Below, piece after piece: positions 5,633-38,573 of a stretch of 54,428 nucleotides of DNA. Each line of letters starts with the position of its first letter. Positions within the stretch are counted from its first letter, which is position 1. Both the position numbers and the translations under genes were made by a program. Location: the NCBI GenBank assembly GCA_030649995.1, contig JAUSEV010000019.1, forward strand, positions 1 through 54,428. Direction: 5' to 3'. This DNA is from Candidatus Uhrbacteria bacterium (GTDB taxonomy: Bacteria > Patescibacteriota > Patescibacteriia > 2-12-FULL-60-25). Under the pieces are notes generated by a model. The model did not search any database, was not told the DNA's origin, and worked only from the letters and a program-made list of their open reading frames with translations.

Positions 5633-6388
5633 TTAAAATGTTCTAGGGATGAGGAAAGCTCGCTGCCACGCCTCAATCTTTTTGTGATCCCCGCTCAATA
5701 AAATTTTTGGTACGCGCCAAGCCGGTTTTTTTTTCTTTTTTGTCAATCGACCGGAACCTCCCCTAACCCCTCCTTCGTAAGGAGGGGAATAGACTTCAGG
5801 TCTCGTGTATTGCGGATATTCGAGTGTGCCTTTGATCGAATGTGATTCCATGGCGAGCGATTCCTGTTTGCCGAGGACTCCGGGTCGAAGACGTACAACC
5901 GCGTCACTCATGACGAGAGCCGCAAGTTCGCCACCGGTCATCACATATTCGCCGATGGACAGCTCTTCATCCGCAAGATGCTCCGCCACACGTTCGTCCA
6001 CGCCCTCGTATCGTCCGCAGAGAAACACAAGGCGATCATATTTTGAAAGTCGTCGCGCATCCGCTTGCGTAAAAATTTTTCCCTTCGCGCTCGTTAAGAT
6101 AATTCGAATTTTCTTTTTGGGATCGTTTTTCTTTTTTCTTTTTTCTTTTCTCAAGGCCTTGAGCGCTCGATCGAAAGGCTCAACCTTCATGACCATGCCA
6201 GGGCCGCCGCCGAACGGCCGATCATCAACCGTGTGATGACGATCATTCGTCCACTTCCGTAAATCATGCGCTCGAATATCCACCAACTTCTTTTTTTGCG
6301 CGCGCCCTAAAATCGATCCGGTGACATACGGTTCGATCATTTCGGGAAAGATGGTGAGGATGTCGATGCGGAGAGGCTTGCGGTTCAT
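5633..6388 (-). CDS. trmD: tRNA (guanine-N1)-methyltransferase
   Basis: 251 aa. Methylates G37 of tRNAs using SAM; a SPOUT knot enzyme active as a dimer. Visible motifs: N-terminal FPEM, RPFGGGPGMV, CGRYEGVDER, SIGEYVMTGGELA and LEYPQYTRPEVY. The start is placed at MNRKPLRIDI; an upstream in-frame ATG lies inside a heptamer array and would only add repeat-encoded residues. Two oddities: a lysine-rich insertion (about residues 80-93) from a pyrimidine tract, and an extra ~22 residues after PEVY (about 200-222) encoded by a palindromic dispersed repeat at 5756-5789, before the conserved WRVPKILLSGDH. Both insertions stay in frame. Confidence 0.95.
   Translation of the reverse strand: MNRKPLRIDILTIFPEMIEPYVTGSILGRAQKKKLVDIRAHDLRKWTNDRHHTVDDRPFGGGPGMVMKVEPFDRALKALRKEKRKKKNDPKKKIRIILTSAKGKIFTQADARRLSKYDRLVFLCGRYEGVDERVAEHLADEELSIGEYVMTGGELAALVMSDAVVRLRPGVLGKQESLAMESHSIKGTLEYPQYTRPEVYSPPYEGGVRGGSGRLTKKKKKPAWRVPKILLSGDHKKIEAWQRAFLIPRTF
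5756..5789. repeat. Palindromic dispersed repeat inside trmD
   Basis: A CTCC...CTTCGTAAGGAGGGG palindrome of the family also seen at 11524-11611 and 38463-38540. Here it is translated as part of TrmD (SPPYEGG). Confidence 0.8.
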
Positions 6389-10051: not shown

Positions 10052-11476
10052 CTAGACCCCTTCTTCCGTTTGTCGATGAGCGATTACGGCCCACGGCGTT
10101 TTGAGTAAAATATACAGATCAAGCCACAATGACCAGTTCTCGATGTACCAAGTATCAAGCCGTACTTCATCTTCAAAATCCAGATTTGATCGTCCGGAAA
10201 TTTGCGCGAGTCCGGTGATTCCCGGTTTTATGGCCAGCACACGGCGGTGATGAGATTTATATTTATTGACTTCTTCGGGCAGATGCGGCCGAGGGCCGAC
10301 AAGACTCATGCGTCCGATCAACACAAGCCAAAGTTCCGGTAATTCATCAATCGACCATTTGCGGATAAAGCGACCGACTCTCGTCACTCGCGGATCATTT
10401 TTAAGTTTGACGAGTGGCCCTCGACGGAGATCGAGATGTGCCAAAGCATCATAGCGGGAAAAATGTTCTCCCTCGCGCATGGAGCGAAATTTGAAATAAT
10501 GAAACGGTTTTCCTCCTTCCCCAATGCGTTCGGTTTTTGTGTGATCAGGCAAGCGGGAAAAAAGGACGCGACCGGGAGAATCAAGTTTTACGGCGATGGC
10601 GGTCAAAAGAAGGATGGGGGAGAGAGCCGTGAGCAGAATGATCGAAACCATCAGATCAAAAAAGCGTTTAGCGATTCGACCCCAGCCATCGAGCGGCGTG
10701 CGTTTGACTTCGATAATGGGAATGCCACCGGCCGTGGAAACTTCTATGCGCGTGAATGATGCGGCAAAAAGATCGGCGAGATAGCGAAAGGTCAGGTGAT
10801 GTTCTTCGGCAAAAGCGATAATATCCAGAGCTTGATTTTTTGGAATTTCCGGATCCGCAAGCAAGATGCCGTCAAGTTTTCCGCGTTCCATCAACCGTTG
10901 CAGTTCCTGTTGAGCCACTTCAGTCCATTGCTTGAGGGTTTTGATGACGGTGTAACCGATCGCAGGATGCGTTTTGTAGAAGTTGGCCAATTCTTGAGCG
11001 GCTCGACTATTGCCGATGATCACAAACCTTTGGTGACCGATGTTGGCGCGTAGGAGGGCGTAACGAATAAGTCGTAAGAGCAGCCGACCAAGCCAAACAT
11101 AAAGAATCGCGATCCCCCATACGGCGACGATGATAAAACGAGAGGTAGTGACTTCTCGACGAAAAAAAACGGTTGCAATGACGACCATGATGCCGGTGGT
11201 GGAAGAAAGAATAATGCGACCAAGTTCGTTCCATGCGCGACGAGCGTGCGTAGAATACAACCCTGCGACGGCAAAGAGAGCCATCCACATGAGAGCAAAC
11301 AGACCAACGCTGATAAGGTAACGGCTAAAAGGGACCTCGGTTAGGATGGGGCGGATGGCGGTAAAAAAGTCTGAAAAACGAAGCGCGTAAGCTGTTACAG
11401 CCGCGCCGAGCAGAGCGAGAAAATCCAAAGGGAGCTTCAAAGCCGTAAAAGACAGATCAATGCGGCGCATATTCAA
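10052..11476 (-). CDS. Undecaprenyl-phosphate sugar phosphotransferase (WbaP/WcaJ-like)
   Basis: 474 aa. Starts lipid-linked glycan synthesis by moving a sugar-1-phosphate onto undecaprenyl phosphate. Four N-terminal TM helices (residues ~10-130), a CoA-binding-like domain (~150-260, VIIGNSRAAQELA), then the catalytic bacterial sugar transferase domain with membrane helix KRFFDLMVSIILL, KFRSM, SIDELPELW, GRMSLVGPRP and GITGLAQISGR. First gene of the minus-strand glycan cluster that continues with two GT4 genes. No flippase or polymerase is in the window. Confidence 0.95.
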   Translation of the reverse strand: MNMRRIDLSFTALKLPLDFLALLGAAVTAYALRFSDFFTAIRPILTEVPFSRYLISVGLFALMWMALFAVAGLYSTHARRAWNELGRIILSSTTGIMVVIATVFFRREVTTSRFIIVAVWGIAILYVWLGRLLLRLIRYALLRANIGHQRFVIIGNSRAAQELANFYKTHPAIGYTVIKTLKQWTEVAQQELQRLMERGKLDGILLADPEIPKNQALDIIAFAEEHHLTFRYLADLFAASFTRIEVSTAGGIPIIEVKRTPLDGWGRIAKRFFDLMVSIILLTALSPILLLTAIAVKLDSPGRVLFSRLPDHTKTERIGEGGKPFHYFKFRSMREGEHFSRYDALAHLDLRRGPLVKLKNDPRVTRVGRFIRKWSIDELPELWLVLIGRMSLVGPRPHLPEEVNKYKSHHRRVLAIKPGITGLAQISGRSNLDFEDEVRLDTWYIENWSLWLDLYILLKTPWAVIAHRQTEEGV

Positions 11477-11523: not shown

Positions 11524-11611
11524 CTGAGACCTCCCTTAATCCCTCCTTCGTAAGGAGGGAGATTTGTCGGAATCTGATCCCTCTCCTTACGAAGGAGAGG
11601 CGAGGTGAGGT
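11524..11611. repeat. Two palindromic dispersed repeats
   Basis: Two copies of the CCTCC...CTTCGTAAGGAGG family, opposite in orientation, lie between the divergent sugar-transferase and recombinase genes. Confidence 0.8.
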
Positions 11612-12648: not shown

Positions 12649-12750
12649 TATTGGATTTTGTGTCGGGCTATAGCGAAGTTGGTATCGCGCCTCGTTCGGG
12701 ACGAGGAGGCCGTGGGTTCGAGTCCCACTAGCCCGACAGAAAATCCAATA
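12649..12750. repeat. Inverted repeat extending the tRNA-Pro acceptor stem
   Basis: Positions 12649-12670 and 12729-12750 are complementary over 22 bp (one mismatch), so the 7-bp acceptor stem of tRNA-Pro continues for 15 more pairs into the flanks. The 3' arm contains CGACAGAAAATCCAATA (12734-12750), repeated directly at 14879-14895. Confidence 0.85.
12664..12736 (+). tRNA. tRNA-Pro (CGG)
   Basis: Acceptor CGGGCTA/TAGCCCG, anticodon arm CCTCG-TTCGGGA-CGAGG (anticodon CGG), T-loop TTCGAGT, discriminator A. CCA is not encoded. Confidence 0.93.
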
Positions 12751-12924
12751 AACTACCCCGCAGCAGAGCTGGCGGGGTATCAATCCTAAATCAAAACTCT
12801 GTCATTCTGAACGCAATTCTATGGAGTGAAGAATCTCCGGATTCGACCGAAGATCCTTCGTTCCGCAGAGCCTTCACTCAGGATGACAGAGGATAACGCA
12901 GTAGAGCTGCGGAGTATTGACTCA
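12751..12924. repeat. Composite dispersed repeat
   Basis: Three modules in order: a TACCCCGC...GCGGGGTA hairpin (12754-12780), a ~88-bp palindrome from GTCATTCTGA to GGATGAC (12801-12887), and a GCAGTAGAGCTGCGGAGTA module (12898-12920). The same modules occur in reverse-complement order at 38182-38360. Confidence 0.8.
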
Positions 12925-12948
12925 AAGAGGAGAATAAAATATTTGTGT

Positions 12949-13047
12949 CGGGCTATAGCGAAGTTGGTATCGCGCCTCGTGAGGGAGTAAAGAGATTTGG
13001 GGAATCTCTTTACGAGGCCGTGGGTTCGAGTCCCACTAGCCCGACCA
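12949..13047 (+). tRNA. tRNA-Pro copy with enlarged anticodon arm (GGG?)
   Basis: D-arm, T-arm and acceptor stem are identical to the tRNA-Pro(CGG) 290 bp upstream, and here CCA is encoded (13045-13047). The anticodon loop is replaced by a longer insert: CCTCG, then TGAGGGAG, then a 10-bp hairpin with loop TGGGG, then CGAGG. If the inner hairpin acts as the anticodon arm its loop is TTGGGGA, anticodon GGG. Whether it is functional, intron-bearing or dead cannot be told. The stop codon of the serine recombinase lies inside its acceptor arm. Confidence 0.65.
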
Positions 13048-14556
13048 AACGAGACTTTCGGAAAAACCGAGGGTCTTGTTTTTTTGAAGCGAAAACGATG
13101 GGGCAGTTTTTTTGGCCAACGTATCGATAATTTGGAATCCCCCCAACCAATCGAACGATACGGTTTTGGTGAGGAGGGATGGGTTCGTTCCGTTTTTTGC
13201 CACAAACGATTTGATTTCATGAAAATCGTTTGACAGTGCCAATTTTTTGGCTTGGTAGACGTCTTTCCAAAATTCTTTTAAGGGTTCGATCCATGAGATG
13301 CCCTTCTTCGTAAAATCAGACTTCTTTTGGTGAAGCTCGGTTTTTTGTTTGATAAGACCTTCCTTCTTTTTGAGATAGATATCTTTGTCTATGAGGTTGT
13401 CGAGATATGAGTCCACCAGCTTACCGAGCTTCTCATCTGTTTCGAGGATTTTGCGATCAATATTTTCGGAAAAGGAACCACGATTATTTTTTAATTCCTT
13501 TTCCCACTCTGCAATCTTGGCAAGCCCTTCCTGGTAACAGGTATCGGAAATAGCAACCGATTGAAGCTGTTCCTTGATTTGAGTTGCTACATCTTTTTCT
13601 TGTAAATACTTCTGCGAGCACGGCCCTAATCTTTTGGTACAGCGGTAATAACGATACGTGCCGCCGTGACCGCGAGCATGTTGAGCCGTGATGGCCGCTC
13701 CGCACTCCCCGCAGGTGAGAAGACCGCAGAAAGGAAAGTTATGTCCTTCCTTGTGCTTGCGAGGCCGTGATTTGCTTTTAAGGACTTTCTGAACAGCTTC
13801 AAACGTCTTGGTATCAATCAGAGCCGGAAAATTACCCTGATAGGCTTCCCCGTTATGTTCAATGATCCCTAAGTAGGCTTTGTTAGTTAATATTCGGTAG
13901 ATTGGGGACTTCTTCAAGGGCTTGCCGGTACTGCCTACAATACCCCAAAAACTAAGGCGCTCTGAAATGCTTTCAAAGGTAAAATTGCCCGATGAAAATT
14001 CCTTAAATATTTTTGCAAGAATTTTACCTTTGACGGGATCAGGTTGGATATTCCTTATTTTCGGATCATTAATATATCCAAACGGAGCCCGTGTTGGCCA
14101 TTCCCCACGCCGAAGTTTTTGTCGTATGCCACGCTTAACATTTTCCGATAAGTTATCCGAGTAATATTTAGATTGGCCAAAAGCGACTTGTAACATAAAA
14201 AGCCCTTGGGGAGTGGGTTCAAACCAGAAGGTCGGGAATTTCAATGAACTGATTTTTTCAGTATCAATAGAGTAAATAATCTGTCCTCCATCGATAGAAT
14301 TACGGGCTAAGCGGTCGGGGTGCCAAGCAAGAAGTCCGACAGATTCTTTACTCTTCTCTACTTCCAGCATCATTTCATTGAAAATTTCCCGACCGGGCTT
14401 TTTTGCGCTTTTGCTTTCGATGAAAGTTTTGGCAATAACAATATTTTCTCGTTTGGCGAATTCTTGTAATTCAGTAAGCTGAGCTTCTATGCTCATGATC
14501 TGCCTTTCTTCGTCTTCTGTGCTCTTACGAGCGTAGAGAAAATATTGTATTGACAT
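13036..14556 (-). CDS. Large serine recombinase
   Basis: 506 aa. Site-specific recombinase of the integrase/invertase class. Resolvase catalytic domain (residues 1-150) with YARKS and nucleophile Ser12; recombinase domain (~155-265); zinc ribbon with Cys282, Cys285, Cys306 and Cys313; then a coiled-coil (~325-440) and a C-terminal tail. The ATG is preceded by AAGGAG at very short spacing. The last 49 codons lie in a 148-bp sequence repeated in inverted orientation at 14682-14829, and the stop falls in the neighbouring tRNA-Pro. The arrangement suggests a mobile or invertible unit. Confidence 0.93.
   Translation of the reverse strand: MSIQYFLYARKSTEDEERQIMSIEAQLTELQEFAKRENIVIAKTFIESKSAKKPGREIFNEMMLEVEKSKESVGLLAWHPDRLARNSIDGGQIIYSIDTEKISSLKFPTFWFEPTPQGLFMLQVAFGQSKYYSDNLSENVKRGIRQKLRRGEWPTRAPFGYINDPKIRNIQPDPVKGKILAKIFKEFSSGNFTFESISERLSFWGIVGSTGKPLKKSPIYRILTNKAYLGIIEHNGEAYQGNFPALIDTKTFEAVQKVLKSKSRPRKHKEGHNFPFCGLLTCGECGAAITAQHARGHGGTYRYYRCTKRLGPCSQKYLQEKDVATQIKEQLQSVAISDTCYQEGLAKIAEWEKELKNNRGSFSENIDRKILETDEKLGKLVDSYLDNLIDKDIYLKKKEGLIKQKTELHQKKSDFTKKGISWIEPLKEFWKDVYQAKKLALSNDFHEIKSFVAKNGTNPSLLTKTVSFDWLGGFQIIDTLAKKTAPSFSLQKNKTLGFSESLVWSG
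13042..13189. repeat. Left 148-bp inverted repeat of the recombinase unit
   Basis: Reverse complement of 14682-14829 with three mismatches. It contains the tRNA CCA end and the recombinase C-terminal codons. Confidence 0.93.
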
Positions 14557-14681
14557 ACTCCTTGGGTTTTAAGGAATAAAAATGTTAAGCGTGGTGGTTA
14601 AAAATTGGCACTGTCGCGAGCGGTAACGAGCAGGGGCAAAAAACGGAAAGGACTCACGGGACTTAATGGGCGGAGCACATC

Positions 14682-14829
14682 AACGAACCCCTCCCTCCTC
14701 GCCAAAACCGTGTCGTTCGATTGGTTGGGGGGATTCCAAATTATCGATACGTTGGCCAAAAAAACTGCCCCATCGTTTTCGCTTCAAAAAAACAAGACCC
14801 TCGGTTTTTCCGAAAGTCTCGTTTGGTCG
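14682..14829. repeat. Right 148-bp inverted repeat of the recombinase unit
   Basis: Partner of 13042-13189 (145 of 148 bases by eye). Between the two arms lies ~1.49 kb with the recombinase catalytic region. Confidence 0.93.
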
Positions 14830-21715: not shown

Positions 21716-21791
21716 TGGTGGTCGTAGTTCAATGGTAGAACACCGCTCTGTGGCAGCGGCCACGTGGGTTCGATTCCCATCGATCACCCCA
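21716..21791 (+). tRNA. tRNA-His (GTG)
   Basis: Acceptor GTGGTCG/CGATCAC with the His-specific extra G at -1 (21716) and discriminator C (21788), anticodon loop CTGTGGC (GTG), and encoded CCA (21789-21791). Confidence 0.95.
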
Positions 21792-21794
21792 GTC

Positions 21795-21824
21795 AAAACG
21801 CTCTCTTCACGGAGAGCGTTTTGT
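21795..21824 (+). terminator. Terminator after tRNA-His
   Basis: AAAACGCTCTC (21795-21805) pairs with GAGAGCGTTTT (21812-21822) and runs into TTTTG. Confidence 0.8.
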
Positions 21825-21838
21825 GATCTAGAAAAATC

Positions 21839-21898
21839 ATGTTGCATCATTTGACAACGTATGCAACATATGTTACATTTCATTCTATGAATGCAACA
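21839..21898 (+). promoter_or_regulatory. Promoter and ATGTTGCAT operator of the HTH/Doc module
   Basis: TTGACA (21851-21856), 17-bp spacer, TACATT (21874-21879), then seven bases to the ATG. ATGTTGCAT (21839-21847) and ATGCAACAT (21861-21869) are a perfect inverted repeat straddling the -35 box; a third half site ATGCAACA lies at 21891-21898, inside the first codons. This layout fits autorepression by the HTH protein (inference). Confidence 0.75.
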
Positions 21899-22147
21899 AA
21901 GAAGATTTTTTCTATTAAAGAAGTAGCTGATCTATTGGGCGTTGATCGTATTACGGTTTATCGTTGGGTTAAATCTGGAAAAGTGAAGGCGGAGATGATC
22001 GGAGGAGCGTATGTCATTTCTGTTGTAGACCTTCCTCATCATTTTATCGGCGGTTTATCCGAAGACAAAAAAATTCAAATTCGAGATGCGGTTGCACAAG
22101 CTCTCGAACAGTACGGAGAAACATTTCGCGCACTTGCCCAAGAGTAA
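21887..22147 (+). CDS. HTH DNA-binding protein, probable antitoxin/autoregulator
   Basis: 86 aa. Residues ~8-50 form a MerR/excisionase-type winged helix-turn-helix (FSIKEVADLLGVDRITVYRWVKSG...AEMIGGAYVI). The C-terminal ~35 residues are an acidic helix that could neutralise the Doc toxin encoded two bases downstream. Most Doc toxins pair with Phd; an Xis-type HTH partner is less usual. The start follows a -10 box directly. A longer frame from 21839 would cover the operator and is rejected. Confidence 0.8.
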   Translation: MNATKKIFSIKEVADLLGVDRITVYRWVKSGKVKAEMIGGAYVISVVDLPHHFIGGLSEDKKIQIRDAVAQALEQYGETFRALAQE

Positions 22148-22149
22148 AT

Positions 22150-22590
22150 ATGGAGTATCTGACATTGGTTGAAGTTGAATTTGTCGCACATGAACTGGCT
22201 CAACAGATGATGAGTGGAGATGAACCGATCCCACCGTTTACTTCTCGTTACTCTGATCGGCTTGAAAGCTGTTTGTCCACACCTCAACAAACTTATGACA
22301 AACGAGAACTCTATTCAACGTTATTGGACAAAGCCTCGATTCTTTTTTATCTCATGATAAAAAGCCATCCATTTAAAAATGGAAACAAACGAGTTGCGAT
22401 CATGACCTTGATTTATTTTCTTTATAAAAATAAAAAATGGTTGCAGATGCCCGATATGGTTTTGTATCAGTTTGCAAAAAATGTCGCTGCGGGTGAAGCA
22501 AGAAAAAAAGATGACGAGGTCGCTTCTGTTAAAGCTTTCTTGAAGCCGCATATCGTGGACTACCGGCCGATCAAAGTGAATACTCGTTAA
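22150..22590 (+). CDS. Doc-type (Fic-fold) toxin
   Basis: 146 aa. The Fic/Doc signature HPFKNGNKR (residues 73-81) is intact. In Doc the corresponding His acts in phosphorylation of EF-Tu, halting translation; classical Fic enzymes AMPylate. The short length and the lack of the Fic ATP-site extension favour Doc. It begins two bases after the HTH gene, so the two are translated together. No inhibitory helix (S/T-x3-E-G/N) is visible in the toxin itself, so neutralisation would have to come from the partner. Confidence 0.88.
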   Translation: MEYLTLVEVEFVAHELAQQMMSGDEPIPPFTSRYSDRLESCLSTPQQTYDKRELYSTLLDKASILFYLMIKSHPFKNGNKRVAIMTLIYFLYKNKKWLQMPDMVLYQFAKNVAAGEARKKDDEVASVKAFLKPHIVDYRPIKVNTR

Positions 22591-22614
22591 TATTCACCAT
22601 CAATACGATACATG

Positions 22615-22670
22615 GGGATCGGGGGGTCATGTCCCAACTCCTTCACGGTGGATATTTTATAAAAATCCTA
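22615..22670. repeat. Direct repeat copy A (~55 bp)
   Basis: GGGGATCGGGGGGTCATGT...CGGTGGATATTTTATAA; matches 24157-24210 over ~55 bp with roughly ten differences. The two copies bracket the small frame and the zinc-ribbon gene. Confidence 0.75.
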
Positions 22671-22686
22671 ACGTTTCATCAGGATT

Positions 22687-22809
22687 TTGAAGCAGACGGA
22701 ATTTGAGGCAAAGAGACGTGAACGTTATCTGAAAGGAGGGAATGGGCGAGAGGCGCTTAAAATCCAATTAAGTGAGACGCTAAAACGGTTGCGATACAAA
22801 CATTTGTGA
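22687..22809 (+). pseudogene. Small open frame, probable gene remnant
   Basis: A TTG-initiated frame of 40 codons encodes a basic, helix-forming peptide (FEAKRRERYLKGGNGREALKI...LRYKHL) and ends four bases before a good terminator. The composition looks coding, but no start with a ribosome site exists, so it may be the 3' end of a lost gene. No family recognised. Confidence 0.4.
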
Positions 22810-22812
22810 CCC

Positions 22813-22847
22813 AACAAAAAACTCTCAATTTTTCGAGGGTTTTTGTT
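22813..22847 (+). terminator. Rho-independent terminator
   Basis: AACAAAAA-ACTCTC pairs with GAGGGT-TTTTGTT across a short T-rich loop. Confidence 0.75.
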
Positions 22848-22896
22848 ATGACCCCTAGCGAGAGTTGAGCTGAAGAGTTACTCTTATTGAGATTTT

Positions 22897-24030
22897 ATGG
22901 CAGAAAAATCATCCTCAATACAATGCGAGCAATGTGGCGGTTGGCATCCGACCGAAGCGCACGCGCAATACGAAACAAAAGTTTGTGAAAAGCGTGTGGC
23001 CGAAATCAAGGCTCGCCCAGATTCGGCGTATCGTTTTGATGCGCTTGGATTCACACCAGACAAGAAAGGAAAAATTGACCCGTGGATGCATGAAGTAATT
23101 GAGAAGGCAAAAGATCTTGGGGACGATTTACAGGATGCAGATTTATATATTCATTTTGGACCCATTGAAGCAGGGGTTCGCGGCAAAGAATTTCCGAGTA
23201 CTTTATCGATGATCACACAAGACTCATTTGTAGAAGGGACGTATATTAGTCGCCATATTTCTGGTGAGTCGATGATGCGCAAGGCACACTGGAGCAGTAA
23301 AGCACCGATTGAAATTTTAGAATTGCAAGAACGTTGGGTAAGAACAAGGAGTCAAGAAGATTTGAAAAGTTATCAGCAGAAAATCCAAAATGAACTCAAC
23401 AAAATTATAAAAATAAATGAGGGGATAATTACCTCTGATCCAAAGAGTCATTTTGATTATCAGAAAGATAAAGAAAGGGCCAATAATTTAATAAAAAAGG
23501 CAACCGATTTGCTCTCGAGATTAGATACTGCTGAAGGAAGAAAAGCATCTGTATATCTTATACAGATAGCGCAACCCGGCACAGCGAGTGGGCCTGGAGG
23601 AGAAGAGGTGGGAGTTATATTCAGTGTTGGTGATGCTGTATTTGAAGAGCCGAGCTTTTATTTCAAAAGAGATGGCGGCGAAGGAGGGCTTAGCAGTCGG
23701 TTATCATTCGTTCATGCAACACCAGTTGCGATTTATTACAAAGAGAAACTCGTGATTTGGTTTGGTAGGGATTATGCTGATTGGCGGCACAATCCAGAAA
23801 ATCAAACCGTTGGGAGCGGTCCAAATCCTGTGAGCGAGGAAGCAAGAGAGTTTTACAAAAAGTTTATCCATGCGCTTTATCTTCCTCATGGTTCTATTGA
23901 AGAACAGCAAAGGATGTTGGAGCGTGTGCTGGATATGACCAAGGATCATCCTGAGCAACGTCTGCCAATTTACAATTTTTACGGCAAACTCGTGTGGCCG
24001 AGACCACCCTCTCTTAAATCCGGAATATAA
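22897..24030 (+). CDS. Zinc-ribbon-containing protein of unknown function
   Basis: 377 aa, no signal peptide. N-terminal Cys pair CEQCGGWHP (residues ~10-18) with a further His and CEKR could hold zinc. The middle (~55-240) has a helical, charged segment (residues ~150-225, likely coiled-coil) between two alpha/beta parts. I do not recognise the family. Base composition is more A/T-rich than the housekeeping neighbours, and the gene is flanked by direct repeats (22615-22670 and 24157-24210), which hints at acquisition as a cassette. A strong hairpin follows. Confidence 0.75.
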   Translation: MAEKSSSIQCEQCGGWHPTEAHAQYETKVCEKRVAEIKARPDSAYRFDALGFTPDKKGKIDPWMHEVIEKAKDLGDDLQDADLYIHFGPIEAGVRGKEFPSTLSMITQDSFVEGTYISRHISGESMMRKAHWSSKAPIEILELQERWVRTRSQEDLKSYQQKIQNELNKIIKINEGIITSDPKSHFDYQKDKERANNLIKKATDLLSRLDTAEGRKASVYLIQIAQPGTASGPGGEEVGVIFSVGDAVFEEPSFYFKRDGGEGGLSSRLSFVHATPVAIYYKEKLVIWFGRDYADWRHNPENQTVGSGPNPVSEEAREFYKKFIHALYLPHGSIEEQQRMLERVLDMTKDHPEQRLPIYNFYGKLVWPRPPSLKSGI

Positions 24031-24089
24031 ATCGTCGCATCGTTGATCCTCTTAAAAACAGTTCTCACTTCCTCTACCACGGCACCCCA

Positions 24090-24124
24090 CGTAAAAACCT
24101 TATATTTATTGTAAGGTTTTTACG
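24090..24124. terminator. Strong bidirectional hairpin terminator
   Basis: CGTAAAAACCTTA (24090-24102) is perfectly complementary to TAAGGTTTTTACG (24112-24124). It separates the convergent zinc-ribbon and NUDIX genes. Confidence 0.85.
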
Positions 24125-24156
24125 TTAAGGTCCACGTGGCAGGCCACTGATCAAAG

Positions 24157-24210
24157 GGGGATCGGGGGTCATGTTCCAGTTGCTTCGCGGTGAATATTTT
24201 ATAAGAACTC
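24157..24210. repeat. Direct repeat copy B (~55 bp)
   Basis: Counterpart of 22615-22670. It ends just after the NUDIX stop codon. Confidence 0.75.
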
Positions 24211-24221
24211 TCGCGTGCATC

Positions 24222-24644
24222 TTAACACTCAACTACAGCCTCTTTGAATCCCCCATGTTTTAATTTGTCCAACGTCATGGGGATGAGCCAGCGTAAATTG
24301 TTGATGACATTTTTTGGGAGCTTTTCTACGTCAAACCATTCGACTCGTTCTTCCTCAAGACTTTTTGCGTCGGTTAGGTCTCCTGTGTAGATGTAACCAA
24401 ACACTTCCATCGTCCACGTCGCAGAGTGCAGCGTTCCAATGTATATCCAATCGGAAGGTTCGGTATTTAATCCTGCTTCCTCTTTTATCTCTCGTTGAAT
24501 GCCGCGGATCCCGTCTTCTTCATCCTCCATTTTTCCACCCAGCCCATTTAATTTTCCCACCTGCCAATCCGGTTTGAGCTTATGCATGAGCAGCACTTTA
24601 TCCAAAGAAGCGTTGAATATGAAGCCAAGAGTGTATTTCTTCAT
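24222..24644 (-). CDS. NUDIX hydrolase (8-oxo-dGTPase-like)
   Basis: 140 aa. Nudix box G-x5-E-x7-REUxEExGU is complete: GGKMEDEED...QREIKEEAGL (about residues 36-59). The N-terminal KKYTLGFIFN and KLNGLGGK resemble MTH1/MutT-type enzymes that clean the nucleotide pool of oxidised purines; the actual substrate cannot be told. Divergent from the leader RNA and HD gene. Confidence 0.9.
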   Translation of the reverse strand: MKKYTLGFIFNASLDKVLLMHKLKPDWQVGKLNGLGGKMEDEEDGIRGIQREIKEEAGLNTEPSDWIYIGTLHSATWTMEVFGYIYTGDLTDAKSLEEERVEWFDVEKLPKNVINNLRWLIPMTLDKLKHGGFKEAVVEC

Positions 24645-24675
24645 AGGGAAGATCCTACCACATAGCTCTGACTGT

Positions 24676-24704
24676 TTGACGATTTGTCAAAAATAGGGTA
24701 TATT
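24676..24704 (+). promoter_or_regulatory. Strong sigma-70 promoter of the leader RNA / HD gene
   Basis: TTGACG (24676-24681), 17-bp spacer, TATATT (24699-24704); start near 24711. Unlike the leaderless genes, it lies ~250 bp before the ATG. Confidence 0.85.
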
Positions 24705-24710
24705 GTGTAT

Positions 24711-24897
24711 GTAGGTTCTTTACAATAGTTACTGTCGCTCGCAGACCAATGAGCCGTCGTCTTCTTCCGCCTTGGGCGGATAGGCAAACAGGGAAATCTG
24801 CTGTGAACCACATGAAGAACGATGACTAACCGCAGGCGGTTGGGAGATTTCATTCAGCTTTTTGCTGGATCAAATCTTTCAGCCGCTTTTTGTTTTT
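24711..24897 (+). ncRNA. Structured leader / sRNA with attenuator-type terminator
   Basis: The ~187-nt transcript has a central stem-loop region (GTCGTCTTCTTC near 24756 with GAAGAACGATGAC near 24814; CCGCC-TT-GGGCGG hairpin) and ends in an elaborate terminator: GCGGTT/AGCCGC, AGATTT/AAATCT, CAGC/GCTG, then TTTTTGTTTTT (24836-24897). CCAA (24746-24749) plus GCC (24753-24755) can pair with GGC (24835-24837) plus TTGG (24840-24843), which would break the terminator. That is the logic of a riboswitch or attenuator for the HD gene 65 bp further on; an independent small RNA is also possible. No known riboswitch consensus was recognised. Confidence 0.6.
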
Positions 24898-24961
24898 CAA
24901 AGGTCGTCCGCCAAAGAGCGGGGAGAACAAATCGGCTTCTCACTCTTTAGCAATTACCATT

Positions 24962-25936
24962 ATGAAAAACACTCAAAATAATTCAGAACAACTGACAAAA
25001 CTTGCCGAGGACTTGGTGCATGAACGTATCAAGGGAACTCGAAAAGGATTACCAAACGAGCCAAACTATCGGCACTCCTTTCGCGTGCGCGAAATGGTGC
25101 GCGATTGTCATCTGGGACTTGAAAAAGACGATGATCTTTTCATCGCCGCACTCCTGCATGACATCATGGAAGATGGCAGCGTCTCGTTCGAGGAGCTGGC
25201 AAAAATGGGTTTCACGAAACGAACGATAGAGCTCGTACGTCTCTGTTCGCACGACATGAGCATAGAAGACAAAACAGAGCGCTGGATAGGAATGATCGCG
25301 CGTCTCATGGGAACGAAAAACGATGATGCGTGGCGCATCAAGCTCGCCGACCTTGCCGATAATCTCGCGCAGTCCGCAGGCCTGTCGCTCGAAAACAGGA
25401 TGTTCATGATTGAGGTCAAGGCACCTCTACTGTTGCGGCTGGCTCATGTCCAAAACTCGGCCTACTACATGCTGAAAGACGAGATGGAGAAGCAGAAAAC
25501 AGAGCTGGCAAAAACCCGTGAAGCGCAGGAAGACAATGGCCAAACGCTCAAGCGATTGGCAGAACATCGCAAAGCACCAACACAGTGTCATCTCTGGAAA
25601 AAAGAACAGGTCACGAATGATGATCTGTATTTCGTGGGATTCGACATCTTGTATACCTTCTATGACGACGGCCATTTGAGCCGCAGGCTCATCAAGTGTA
25701 AAGAGTGCGGACAACTCTATTTCAAAGAGTTCTACGAAGAAATTGATTGGGCTGATGGTGACGATCCACAGTATGTGACGTGCATCCCCGTTTCAGACGA
25801 ACCAGAAGCATGGCTCATAAGCAAGACGAGCATCATGGATATTTTGCGGTTCCAGCCGTGCCTTCGCAGCGACTGGCCGAAGGGCGGAATAAAGACAACA
25901 TATTGGGTTGGCCGCAATAAAGAAAATCAACAATAA
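24962..25936 (+). CDS. HD-domain hydrolase, RelA/SpoT-hydrolase-like
   Basis: 324 aa. The N-terminal HD domain (residues ~25-170) has H in YRHSFRVREM, HD in AALLHDIMED and a distal D in IKLADLADNL, the metal-binding set of (p)ppGpp hydrolases and related phosphohydrolases. A coiled stretch (~175-215) links to a C-terminal domain with a CKECGQLYFKEF knuckle and further Cys, possibly a zinc ribbon. Domain order does not match Rel/Spo synthetases, so a single-domain hydrolase is more likely. A 250-nt structured leader precedes it. Confidence 0.8.
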   Translation: MKNTQNNSEQLTKLAEDLVHERIKGTRKGLPNEPNYRHSFRVREMVRDCHLGLEKDDDLFIAALLHDIMEDGSVSFEELAKMGFTKRTIELVRLCSHDMSIEDKTERWIGMIARLMGTKNDDAWRIKLADLADNLAQSAGLSLENRMFMIEVKAPLLLRLAHVQNSAYYMLKDEMEKQKTELAKTREAQEDNGQTLKRLAEHRKAPTQCHLWKKEQVTNDDLYFVGFDILYTFYDDGHLSRRLIKCKECGQLYFKEFYEEIDWADGDDPQYVTCIPVSDEPEAWLISKTSIMDILRFQPCLRSDWPKGGIKTTYWVGRNKENQQ

Positions 25937-25940
25937 TAAT

Positions 25941-26066
25941 ATGAACAAGTACAAAATTACTGCACAGCCATTGATCGGCGAAGGCAATACGGAATATGTC
26001 GTGGAAGCTGATTCGGAAGAACAGGCCAAAGAGATACCGTGTACGATGAAAAATGAGGATGGATAA
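25941..26066 (+). CDS. Small acidic protein, unknown (41 aa)
   Basis: Begins four bases after the HD gene and is probably translated with it. Sequence pattern KYKITAQPL...EYVVEADSEEQAKEI resembles small CPR proteins of strand-helix type. Function unknown. Confidence 0.6.
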   Translation: MNKYKITAQPLIGEGNTEYVVEADSEEQAKEIPCTMKNEDG

Positions 26067-26077
26067 CGGTGAACTGT

Positions 26078-26106
26078 TTGAGCAGACAGAGAAGTTCTGG
26101 TATAGT
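26078..26106 (+). promoter_or_regulatory. Promoter of the 26.1-kb ncRNA
   Basis: TTGAGC (26078-26083), 17-bp spacer, TATAGT (26101-26106), placing the start at 26113, exactly the first base of the RNA's closing stem. Confidence 0.8.
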
Positions 26107-26112
26107 TTTCGG

Positions 26113-26367
26113 GGATAGCGAGAGTTGGTATTTTTTGGTCGAAAGATCGAAAACAGTGTCGTGCAATAAGTCCGCCATCCGTCTTGTACGGTGGATTCGT
26201 CTCGCGGCGAAAGGTGCGGTGAAAAGCGGCGGTGACTTACGGGTATACCAAGAGCCCTAACTATCGGGGAGGCGAACAAAGGCACGCAACAAACAAGATC
26301 GTGGTGATGACCTTCAAGTAACTGGCTATCCAACAAAGAACTCCCCACGCGGGAGTTTTGTGTTTTG
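26113..26367 (+). ncRNA. Structured ncRNA gene, unknown class (~255 nt)
   Basis: The closing stem pairs GGATAGC (26113-26119) with GCTATCC (26325-26331). Inside are TTGGTAT (26125-26131)/ATACCAA (26245-26251); AAGTC (26168-26172)/GACTT (26234-26238) holding a CCGT/ACGG hairpin and a GC-rich purine region; and AAGG-CACG (26279-26286)/CGTG (26300-26303)-CCTT (26311-26314). A terminator hairpin follows. The frame is closed in all directions, so no protein. It lacks the RNase P CR-I, SRP GGAAG, tmRNA TTCGA and 5S signatures. The downstream cupredoxin gene has its own promoter, so this is a separate gene. Confidence 0.7.
26339..26367 (+). terminator. Terminator of the ncRNA
   Basis: AACTCCC (26339-26345) pairs with GGGAGTT (26351-26357), followed by TTGTGTTTTG. 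Confidence 0.85.
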
Positions 26368-26460
26368 AGAAATAGTGAGTGGCGCGATGGGGTATGCCTT
26401 ACGCGGCGACCTTCTCATGCAAATCTGGGATGTAGATGGTGGCACCCCGACACAATCTCC

Positions 26461-26488
26461 TTGTCAACCAAGGAGATTTTGTTATACT
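26461..26488 (+). promoter_or_regulatory. Promoter of the cupredoxin gene
   Basis: TTGTCA (26461-26466), 16-bp spacer, TATACT (26483-26488). Confidence 0.75.
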
Positions 26489-26529
26489 ACAAACGACAAA
26501 CTTTATTTATTCCCTTTTTTCAAAAGCTT

Positions 26530-26961
26530 ATGCGTACACTTTTATTGGCAGGTTTTTTGGTGGCGGTGATGGGTGTGGGTTGTACGGGACCGTTATCACC
26601 GGCGGCGTCAGTTGAGCCATCACCTGCGCCAGCTCCAGCACCCGTTACACCACCCACATCTGAAAAGCCGGAAAAGTCGGTTCCCAAGAGTGTGGCCGTT
26701 GAGATCAAGGACAGTGCTTTTTCCCCACAGATGATCGCGATCAATCCCGGCGACACAGTGGTGTGGACCAACAAGGGCAAGTTTGATCATACTTCGACAG
26801 GACTCAATGGACCGCTTCTGTGGGACTCCGGCAATATCAAATCCGGCGAATCTTATCACCGTGTTTTTGCGGCAGAGGGGCGATATGAGTATCGTTGCGG
26901 GATTCATCCGAATATGACGGGCACGGTGATTGTGGGTAAGATCATTCCATCGGCTCCCTAA
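26530..26961 (+). CDS. Cupredoxin lipoprotein (plastocyanin-like)
   Basis: 143 aa. Lipobox signal peptide (GVGC, Cys18), a Pro/Ala linker (~20-52), then a plastocyanin-like beta-barrel (~55-140). Type-1 copper ligands are visible: His in FDHTSTG and Cys, His, Met in YRCGIHPNMTG. Probably a surface-anchored electron carrier or copper handler; no partner oxidase is in the window. The start is the ATG before the signal peptide; the longer frame has no support. It shares WDSG...CGIH-x2-M-x-GTV with the cupredoxin domain of the 40430-41269 product. Confidence 0.88.
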   Translation: MRTLLLAGFLVAVMGVGCTGPLSPAASVEPSPAPAPAPVTPPTSEKPEKSVPKSVAVEIKDSAFSPQMIAINPGDTVVWTNKGKFDHTSTGLNGPLLWDSGNIKSGESYHRVFAAEGRYEYRCGIHPNMTGTVIVGKIIPSAP

Positions 26962-26967
26962 CAATCT

Positions 26968-27771
26968 ATGCATACAAAGAAAATTATCGGTGTCGTGGTT
27001 GGTGTTATCTGTTTTATTTTGATTCTCATCATCAATCCCTTTGTGACCGTATCCGCGGGTCAGCGCGGGGTGGTTTTGAATTGGGGGGCATTTAATGGAC
27101 GGATTCTCGATCCGGGTCTTCATATGCGAATGCCGATCGCTCAATCGGTTGTAAAAATGGATGTCCAGACACAGAAACTCGAAATAGCGGCATCCGAGGC
27201 GTATTCTCACGATCTTCAAAATGTGAAAATTCATTCCGTGGTCAATTATAATTTAGATCCGAAAGAGGTTGGTTTGATTTATCAACAATATGGTTTGGAT
27301 GTCGAGAGCCGAATTCTTTACCCGAATCTTGAGGCTGCGGTAAAACAGACGGTCGCCAAATATAGCGCGGAAGAACTTCTCTCCAAGCGCGGAGAAGTGG
27401 CTACTGAAATTGAATTGGCTTTTAGGCAAGCCATTCCACACGCGTTTCTCGTGACAAAATACGCGTTGGTCAATGAAGCGTTTTCCGATGCGTTTGAAGC
27501 CGCGATTGAGCAGAAGCAGATCGCGCAACAAAATGCGGAGAAAGCGAATAATGACTTGAAACGCATTAAAATCGAGGCGGAACAGCGCGTCTCACAAGCC
27601 ACGGCCGAAGCCGAAGCCATCAAGATTCAGGCGCAGGCCATTCAACAGCAGGGAGGAGCATCCTACGTCAACTTAAAGGCCGTGGAAAAATGGGACGGAC
27701 ATCTGCCGGCGCAAATGATTCCGGGCGGGGCACTGCCATTTCTCAACCTTCAAACGCAAGGGTTGAGGTAA
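26968..27771 (+). CDS. SPFH/prohibitin-family membrane protein
   Basis: 267 aa. N-terminal TM helix (~7-25) and a band-7 domain (~25-190: GQRGVVLNWG, LDPGLHMRMP, DVQTQKLE, YSAEELLSKRGEV), then an Ala/Gln/Glu-rich coiled-coil (~185-230) and GGASYVNLKAVEKWDG...LPFLNL, as in prohibitins. Forms ring scaffolds in the membrane, often regulating proteases such as FtsH. Six bases after the cupredoxin gene, probably one operon. Confidence 0.92.
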   Translation: MHTKKIIGVVVGVICFILILIINPFVTVSAGQRGVVLNWGAFNGRILDPGLHMRMPIAQSVVKMDVQTQKLEIAASEAYSHDLQNVKIHSVVNYNLDPKEVGLIYQQYGLDVESRILYPNLEAAVKQTVAKYSAEELLSKRGEVATEIELAFRQAIPHAFLVTKYALVNEAFSDAFEAAIEQKQIAQQNAEKANNDLKRIKIEAEQRVSQATAEAEAIKIQAQAIQQQGGASYVNLKAVEKWDGHLPAQMIPGGALPFLNLQTQGLR

Positions 27772-27782
27772 GTTGATGTCAT

Positions 27783-28139
27783 ATGTTTTTTCAACCGAAG
27801 CGCGTGGAGAAGCCTTGGGGATATGAGGTGTGGTTTGCTCATGCGGAAAATTATGTCGGCAAAATCATTCACATCAATCAAAACTGTCAGTTAAGTTTGC
27901 AGTATCATGTGGAAAAAGATGAAACCCTTTATTGTTTCAAGGGACAGGCATTTTTGGTGTATGGAAAGGACGACACTTTGATCGAAGAGTCCTTCAAAGA
28001 AGGGCGGTCGTTTCGTGTGTATCCGGGAACAAAGCATCGGCTCAAAGCCGGTGAAGGCGGATGTGATATTCTGGAAGCTTCCACGGCACAGGTTGACGAT
28101 GTCGTTCGTCTTCAAGATGACTACGGCCGTCTTGGGTAG
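27783..28139 (+). CDS. Cupin, mannose-6-phosphate isomerase-like
   Basis: 118 aa, a single cupin barrel. KPWGYEVWFA, LQYHVEKDETLY (metal His/Glu), PGTKHRL and VDDVVRLQDDYGR match the C-terminal domain of type II phosphomannose isomerases. It may isomerise a sugar phosphate for surface glycans. Follows the SPFH gene by 11 bp. Confidence 0.88.
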   Translation: MFFQPKRVEKPWGYEVWFAHAENYVGKIIHINQNCQLSLQYHVEKDETLYCFKGQAFLVYGKDDTLIEESFKEGRSFRVYPGTKHRLKAGEGGCDILEASTAQVDDVVRLQDDYGRLG

Positions 28140-28148
28140 AAGATATTT

Positions 28149-28343
28149 ATGGATGGGACGATTCGAAAAGATATTCACCCGGGCTTACCCGTCGTCATCG
28201 TTGAAAAACAAGATCAAGGCACCGGAAAATCCACGTGCGGGATTGTTAAAGATATTTTAACCAGCGCGCCCGTACATCCTCGAGGCATCAAAGTCAGATT
28301 GGAAACAGGAGAGGTCGGAAGAGTGCAGTATATTGAAGTGTAA
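28149..28343 (+). CDS. YwbE-family protein
   Basis: 64 aa. Matches the YwbE/DUF2196 pattern: IRKDIHPGLPVVIVEKQDQ, TCGIVKDILT, HPRGIKVRLE and GEVGRVQYI. A small beta-barrel of unknown role. Last gene of the 26.5-28.3 kb operon. Confidence 0.9.
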   Translation: MDGTIRKDIHPGLPVVIVEKQDQGTGKSTCGIVKDILTSAPVHPRGIKVRLETGEVGRVQYIEV

Positions 28344-38066: not shown

Positions 38067-38573
38067 AAAGGAGAGAATAGAAAAAAGAGAAAACGTCACC
38101 TCCTCTTTACTAAAGAGGGAGGTCAGACGGAGCTCTCTCAAAAGAGAGAGGGTCTGATCAGAATCTTTTTTATTCTCTTTTAGAGTCAATACTCCGCAGC
38201 TTGCTGCGTGAGCCATCTGTCATCCTGAGTGAAGTCCGACGAAACGAAGGATCTTCGACCGATCGGATCCGAAGATTCTTCACTCCATCGAATTACGTTC
38301 AGAATGACAGCATTTGGGTTGAAGGGTGATACCCCGTCAGCTTTGCTGCGGGGGAGTTTATCAACCCCCAAAGCGGGTTCAATACCCCGCCACTTGTGGC
38401 GTCTGTCTCCCGAACCTCACCCCGCCCTCTCTCTTCGAGTCCGAGCCTCAGAGTCGATGACCTTCGTAAGGAGAGGGTTCTGAAGGTTCTGATCGGATCT
38501 GACCTCCCTCCTTACGAAGGAGGGAATGAGGGAGGTGGTAGCCCGATACCCCGTCCGCTTGCGGCGGGGTAGT
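38067..38573. repeat. Gene-free block of stacked dispersed repeats
   Basis: No gene. In order: CTCTTTACTAAAGAGGG and CTCTCAAAAGAGAG palindromes (38095-38155); the composite repeat in reverse order (38182-38360); a GATACCCCG...GCGGGG pair (38328-38402); two CTTCGTAAGGAG palindromes (38463-38540); and a last TACCCCG hairpin (38545-38578) touching the transketolase stop codon. Confidence 0.85.

Follow-up and report, generated by a model that had tools for sequence, protein, structure and literature searches.

What is encoded between an HD-domain gene and a cupredoxin gene in a 54,428-nucleotide stretch of DNA from Candidatus Uhrbacteria, here called the window, and does it belong to any known kind of RNA? 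The genomes of Patescibacteria are very small, and not many of their regulatory RNAs have been studied. The first-pass annotation of the window had placed here an independent structured noncoding RNA gene of no recognized class, with a promoter, a closing stem, long-range internal stems, and a terminator. As judged from its sequence features, the locus is an independent structured RNA gene lying between two genes and equipped with its own promoter and terminator (Table 1). The explanation that best accounts for the data as a whole, to which we give a probability of about 0.6, is a previously uncatalogued, independently transcribed class of structured RNA, possibly a ribonucleoprotein (RNP) RNA carried as accessory cargo.

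Table 1. Coordinates of the RNA gene, its predicted elements, and its upstream neighbor in the window
Feature	Position	Strand	Details
HD-domain gene, upstream	24890-25936	+	Pfam HD, 3.5e-05; immediate neighbor, common to the window and isolate UCB1
Sigma-70-type promoter (predicted)	26078-26106	+	-35 TTGAGC, 17-nt spacer, TG-extended -10 TATAGT
Structured RNA body	26113-26331	+	Delimited by the outermost bases of closing stem P1; ~220 bases
P1, 5' strand	26113-26119	+	Pairs with 26325-26331; extension A26121-U26323, G26122-C26322
P2, 5' strand UUGGUAU	26125-26131	+	Long range; partner AUACCAA 26245-26251
P3 hairpin	26132-26153	+	26132-26140 with 26145-26153
P4, 5' strand	26154-26162	+	Partner 26226-26234
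J4/5 conserved internal loop, 5' side GCAAUAAGU	26163-26171	+	Faces UGAAAA 26220-26225
P5, 5' strand CCGCC	26172-26176	+	Partner 26214-26219
Optional insertion, P6 and P7	26177-26210	+	P6 26177-26183/26190-26196; P7 26197-26201/26206-26210
P8 three-pair hairpin, conserved UUACG-type loop	26235-26244	+	
Variable 3' domain with P9 and another hairpin	26255-26324	+	Missing from the 115-nt minimal form
Rho-independent terminator hairpin AGAACTCCCCACGCGGGAGTTTT	26337-26359	+	

The predicted promoter matched 9 of 12 consensus bases, with TG preceding the -10 hexamer. Across the 13 members of the class described below, the match to TATAAT averaged 4.46 of 6 positions at -13 from the first P1 base and at most 3.2 at other offsets. 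The hexamer of the window itself lies 1 base closer to the start than that position, and the gap between the -10-like hexamer and the RNA start was a constant 6 to 7 nt in all members. A terminator hairpin followed P1 at the same place in 13/13 members. The downstream cupredoxin gene was correctly credited with a promoter of its own, a promoter-like site (TTGTCA-16-TATACT) at 26461-26488. Because promoter position and terminator hairpin were conserved in all 13 members and the neighboring genes changed, the RNA is probably encoded by an independent gene. Among the 645 cells of paired positions in the 13-member alignment, 98 were G-U and 13 were A-C; since G-U was frequent and A-C rare, selection would act on the sense-strand RNA and neither on DNA nor on the antisense strand. 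Together with the promoter and the terminator, the G-U pairs point to transcription of the gene. The locus 26113-26359 thus combined covarying helices with a promoter and a terminator of its own, as expected of a structured independent noncoding RNA.

Covariation was analyzed in a MAFFT alignment of the 13 members made from sequence only, with no structure input, and was compared with shuffles and with pairing partners slid along the alignment. Double-sided changes were found in 26 of the 57 modeled pairs, against a shuffle mean of 13.2 and 6 to 11 with slid partners. The modeled P1-P9 pairing accounted for 92.4% of cells (39 to 47% with slid partners), and the covariation score was 0.290 (0.07 to 0.09 with slid partners). 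The alignment shows one fold, conserved in the predicted pairing of all members through compensatory mutation. The strongest helices were P3 (compensatory changes in 8/9 pairs), P4 (6/8), P1 (4/9, with 100% of cells paired), and P2 (2/7, 95.6% paired). The 7-bp closing stem is present, as are long-range internal stems (P2, P4, and P5). P5 was paired in 95.4% of cells and P8 in 97.4%. Two pairs of P7 were compensated; P6 hardly varies and hence gives no covariation test. P9 as modeled was paired in 69% of cells, which leaves its register uncertain.

Helices P2, P3, P4, and P8 would meet in a four-way junction, which in the window sequence has no unpaired bases. Conserved unpaired bases were located in J1/2 (GAGAG/GAG), J4/5 (AAUAAGU/GAAAA), and the P8 loop, and in J4/5 the positions A26165, U26167, and A26222-A26224 were invariant in the 13 members; over the whole molecule, invariant bases showed no significant concentration at unpaired positions (17/32 versus 33/83, P = 0.21). 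The class ranged from 115 to 280 nt, with minimal forms of 115 to 154 nt, in which the 3' domain is reduced or missing, and longer forms that have it. Seven of the 13 members carried the P6/P7 insertion and 6 had a short loop in its place, independently of the size form. In single-sequence folding, the window RNA was mildly unusual relative to shuffles (z = -1.9), a value at which homologues were needed to exclude chance; five relatives gave z = -4.1, -3.3, -3.5, -2.2, and -2.3. The unaided minimum-energy fold of one member (G550, locus L072) contained P1-P5, P8, and a P9, and that of the minimal member from G528 retained P1, P2, and P3 and paired the P4-P8 part differently. An alternative helix of 26167-26171 (UAAGU) with 26235-26239 (ACUUA) was 92% paired with two compensated pairs, a signal matched by shuffles in 24 to 36 of 500 trials. 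This helix would exclude P8 and probably P4 too, and we treat it as a lead.

In BLAST searches of relatives, one strong homologue was found, with 90% identity from position 26112 up to and including the terminator. It lies in the nearest relative, Candidatus Uhrbacteria isolate UCB1 (G012, contig QEVR01000003.1), which belongs to another genus of the family. With a two-member model of window and UCB1, full-length members were obtained from two more families of the class (G225 at 131 bits and G334 at 80 bits), and a four-member model, R2, yielded members in eight further genomes elsewhere in the phylum at 73 to 138 bits, with two copies in one; R2 had been built before those eight genomes were known. 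In all, the covariance model grown from the window added 12 full-length members, which came from 11 other Patescibacteria genomes of several families and several other classes. The final model, R3, scored all 13 members at 90 to 195 bits, being built from those same 13, and the RNA body of the window at 191.7 bits, with start and end points shared by the homologues. One genome (G555) held two full copies and a partial third comprising the 3' half and terminator (L081, about 11080-11180). Weak model matches at L063 (18 bits), L064 (13 bits), and L078 (21 bits) lay in coding sequence or were partial and were dropped, and the BLAST near-matches L026-L030 were rejected as coding or chance. Among the latter, L029 (G033) contains the stretch TAGCTATCGGGGAGGGGAACA.

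The distribution was patchy. In a sample of the phylum, 9 of 380 genomes carried a credible member (10 reached the threshold, one of them doubtful), that is, about 2%; one class had a member in 4 of 13 genomes and another in 1 of 373. These counts are lower bounds, as the many-genome searches used strict filters. A scan of genome contigs matched UCB1 alone, exact-pattern scans of viral contigs gave no match, and neither did BLAST searches of phage, plasmid, and Escherichia coli collections. Between the window and UCB1, the RNA was 91% identical, compared with 75% for the RNase P RNAs of these genomes and 74 to 75% for the adjacent HD gene where alignable. The identity of the RNA fits strong constraint or a later exchange of the RNA alone. 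The tree of the members had branching without resolution, and transfer events are uncountable from it.

The RNA was searched against the 4,227 models of Rfam 15 at gathering thresholds and then at E values up to 10. At gathering thresholds, only tRNAs were found in the window and at ten member loci. At E up to 10, three members, the window among them, gave nothing credible; the window had just a 12-bit chance match to sR42, and the best score on other members was 17 bits, far below the cutoff. No match to SRP RNA or 6S RNA was obtained in the window at E up to 10, nor to the raiA motif (RF03072) in the window and other members. No structured RNA class of Patescibacteria or Uhrbacteria turned up in literature searches of open-license papers. 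The class is well supported, and it has no match to an Rfam family and no described relative in the open-license literature searched. None of the three refuting outcomes named in the first-pass annotation was observed: Rfam gave no significant match, the helices covaried, and the RNA is conserved in other genomes. Fold, homologues, and the lack of an Rfam match support the proposal of a new RNA class, which is refined here to a patchy class and not a phylum-wide one.

In the wider sense, the class is one more orphan structured RNA of bacteria, a group that includes raiA/ModT and ROOL/GOLLD. The raiA motif, or ModT RNA, is likewise a stand-alone structured RNA of ~200 to 260 nt with a housekeeping-type promoter, but it occurs in Bacillota and Actinomycetota, in >2,500 species (PMC11706538), whereas the RNA described here has a patchy distribution among Patescibacteria. 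GOLLD and ROOL are also ornate orphan RNAs of patchy occurrence, although they are larger, at ~650 to >800 nt, and borne by phages or prophages, often near tRNA islands (PMC12286853), in contrast to the 115 to 280 nt of the present RNA and its lack of matches in phage and viral collections.

Neighboring genes were listed within about 4 kb at 13 loci, and the nearest were scanned with Pfam. At most loci, a same-strand gene ended just upstream of the RNA. The neighbors encoded HD (window and UCB1), FtsK-like and PrsW-like, SWIM and SHOCT, DUF167 and SHOCT, HIT and DUF3800, macro domain, PIN and PLD, DpnI, and SIR2-like proteins; HD recurred twice and SHOCT occurred near members of three genomes, and none was constant. 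Several members adjoined restriction, toxin-antitoxin-like, or other defense-like genes. In a PADLOC control with 10 ordinary proteins of the window, 2 matched models as well; such matches are thus unspecific, and the association of the RNA with defense genes is at most suggestive. The order of HD gene and RNA was kept in the UCB1 locus (L057), and the downstream YwbE gene was also common to the window and UCB1. Twelve other relatives had no RNA at their YwbE loci, and the genes surrounding YwbE were arranged differently among the 10 relatives examined. YwbE loci lacking the RNA and differing gene order indicate that the RNA is accessory. The interval from tRNA-His to YwbE (DUF2196) is itself variable, with ~80 bp in one relative (G028) and 6.4 kb in the window (21718-28343), where it holds HTH/Fic, HD, RNA, cupredoxin, SPFH, and cupin genes.

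Short sequences also recurred around the RNA. A 26-nt motif, GARRAATAGTGAGTRGCRNGGTGGGG, was located directly 3' of the terminator in the window (26367-26392) and UCB1 (L057, 8775-8800) and directly 5' of the RNA promoter in G550 (L083, 422-448, minus strand) and G738 (L085, 1676-1702, minus strand); the motif and the RNA 5' end have GGAATAGTGAG in common. The RNA 3' end was faced by a conserved coding tail of short length (WGAVVEEVRTVF..NDATIYIPDMREK) in UCB1 (L057, 8804-8896, minus strand), with a remnant in the window (26402-26443, minus strand), a relative in G550, and a second copy in the window (24009-24089, minus strand) after a 377-aa gene (22897-24030). Its substitutions fell mainly at third codon positions. 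A short convergent ORF tail (TIYIPD) lay 3' of the RNA in the window, UCB1, and G550.

In the proposed function, the RNA would act in trans, because no downstream gene was constant, and would form an RNP with a protein whose gene lies in another part of the genome. The conserved unpaired bases, located in internal loops rich in purines and in one small hairpin loop, suggest an RNP, ligand, or catalytic core. The more specific proposal, an RNP RNA binding a protein encoded elsewhere and carried as horizontally exchanged accessory cargo, we place at roughly even odds. The patchy distribution suggests that the RNA spread horizontally within variable gene neighborhoods; repeated loss may also account for the patchiness. 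A bolder and doubtful version holds that this is a Patescibacteria-specific four-way-junction RNA of an accessory RNP, possibly of a defense or mobile-element system, that passes between distant lineages and toggles, speculatively, between P4/P8 and the UAAGU-ACUUA helix.

The RNA gene, with or without a neighbor, might instead be mobile in itself or belong to a cassette system, with the RNA serving the movement or maintenance of the element. The patchy distribution, the two copies and partial third in one genome, the changing side on which GARRAATAGTGAGTRGCRNGGTGGGG stands relative to the RNA, and the shared TIYIPD tail are consistent with such an element. Against it, no recombinase, transposase, or reverse transcriptase was constantly adjacent among the nearest genes scanned with Pfam within ~4 kb of the 13 loci, most genomes had one copy, no terminal repeats were seen, and the phage, plasmid, and viral collections were without a match. 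We consider this explanation unlikely.

A base-pairing small RNA, or a guide or antitoxin RNA that finds its targets by complementarity, would also have a stand-alone gene with a terminator, and defense- or toxin-like genes were found near several members. However, the 115-nt minimal form is largely paired, hairpin-loop sequences vary, and no gene is constantly adjacent, unlike in toxin-antitoxin or CRISPR-like systems. Judged by conservation and predicted pairing, few conserved bases would be free as an antisense or guide stretch, and unpaired A-rich segments occur in the variable 3' domain of some members. Such a role appears quite improbable.

Riboswitch-terminator leaders likewise consist of a fold followed by an intrinsic terminator, and at many loci a codirectional gene lay downstream, as expected if the RNA were a cis-acting riboswitch or attenuator controlling that gene through the terminator. 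The downstream genes were, however, mostly unrelated and at several loci distant or on the opposite strand, the next gene of the window has its separate promoter-like site, and on inspection the terminator and P1 had no strand in common, hence no antiterminator was evident. Control in cis is thus very improbable.

The RNA might also be a diverged paralogue of a known RNA, for instance RNase P RNA, which the short stretches AAGUCC and GGUGCGGUGAAAAGC resemble. This origin is largely refuted, as RF00010 found the genuine copy on another contig of the genome (G000:C6:20476-21108, 109 bits) and left the present locus unmatched at E up to 1, no Rfam RNase P match appeared at E up to 10, and BLASTN against the RNase P RNA loci of relatives gave chance-level matches. 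The genuine tmRNA was likewise located elsewhere (G000:C21:73609-74033, RF00023/ARAGORN test), and ARAGORN detected no tmRNA in the window; since the genome encodes both RNAs elsewhere, both identities were excluded for the locus. The RNase P RNA match of this genome (L054) spans about 630 nt, with several inserted hairpins that resemble one another and are of the type CCCCCGTCGCGTAAAGCTTTGGGGG.

Between two genera, the RNA is more tightly conserved than RNase P RNA, yet it is present in only a few percent of genomes; it is probably useful enough to be retained once acquired. The alignment and model can be put to direct use in probing, in pull-down, and in searches of metatranscriptomes.

Other repeated elements were seen in the window. 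At 12657-14829, a tRNA-Pro and a neighboring tRNA-Ser call have identical 5' and 3' parts, and an ORF at 13039-14556, by sight serine-recombinase-like, is bounded by 148-nt inverted repeats that are 98% complementary. The palindromic repeat CCTCCTTCGTAAGGAGG, REP- or MITE-like, occurs several times in both orientations (5756-5786, 11529-11561, and 38504-38536). At the contig end (53351-54428), an ORF between perfect 25-nt inverted repeats is probably an insertion sequence.
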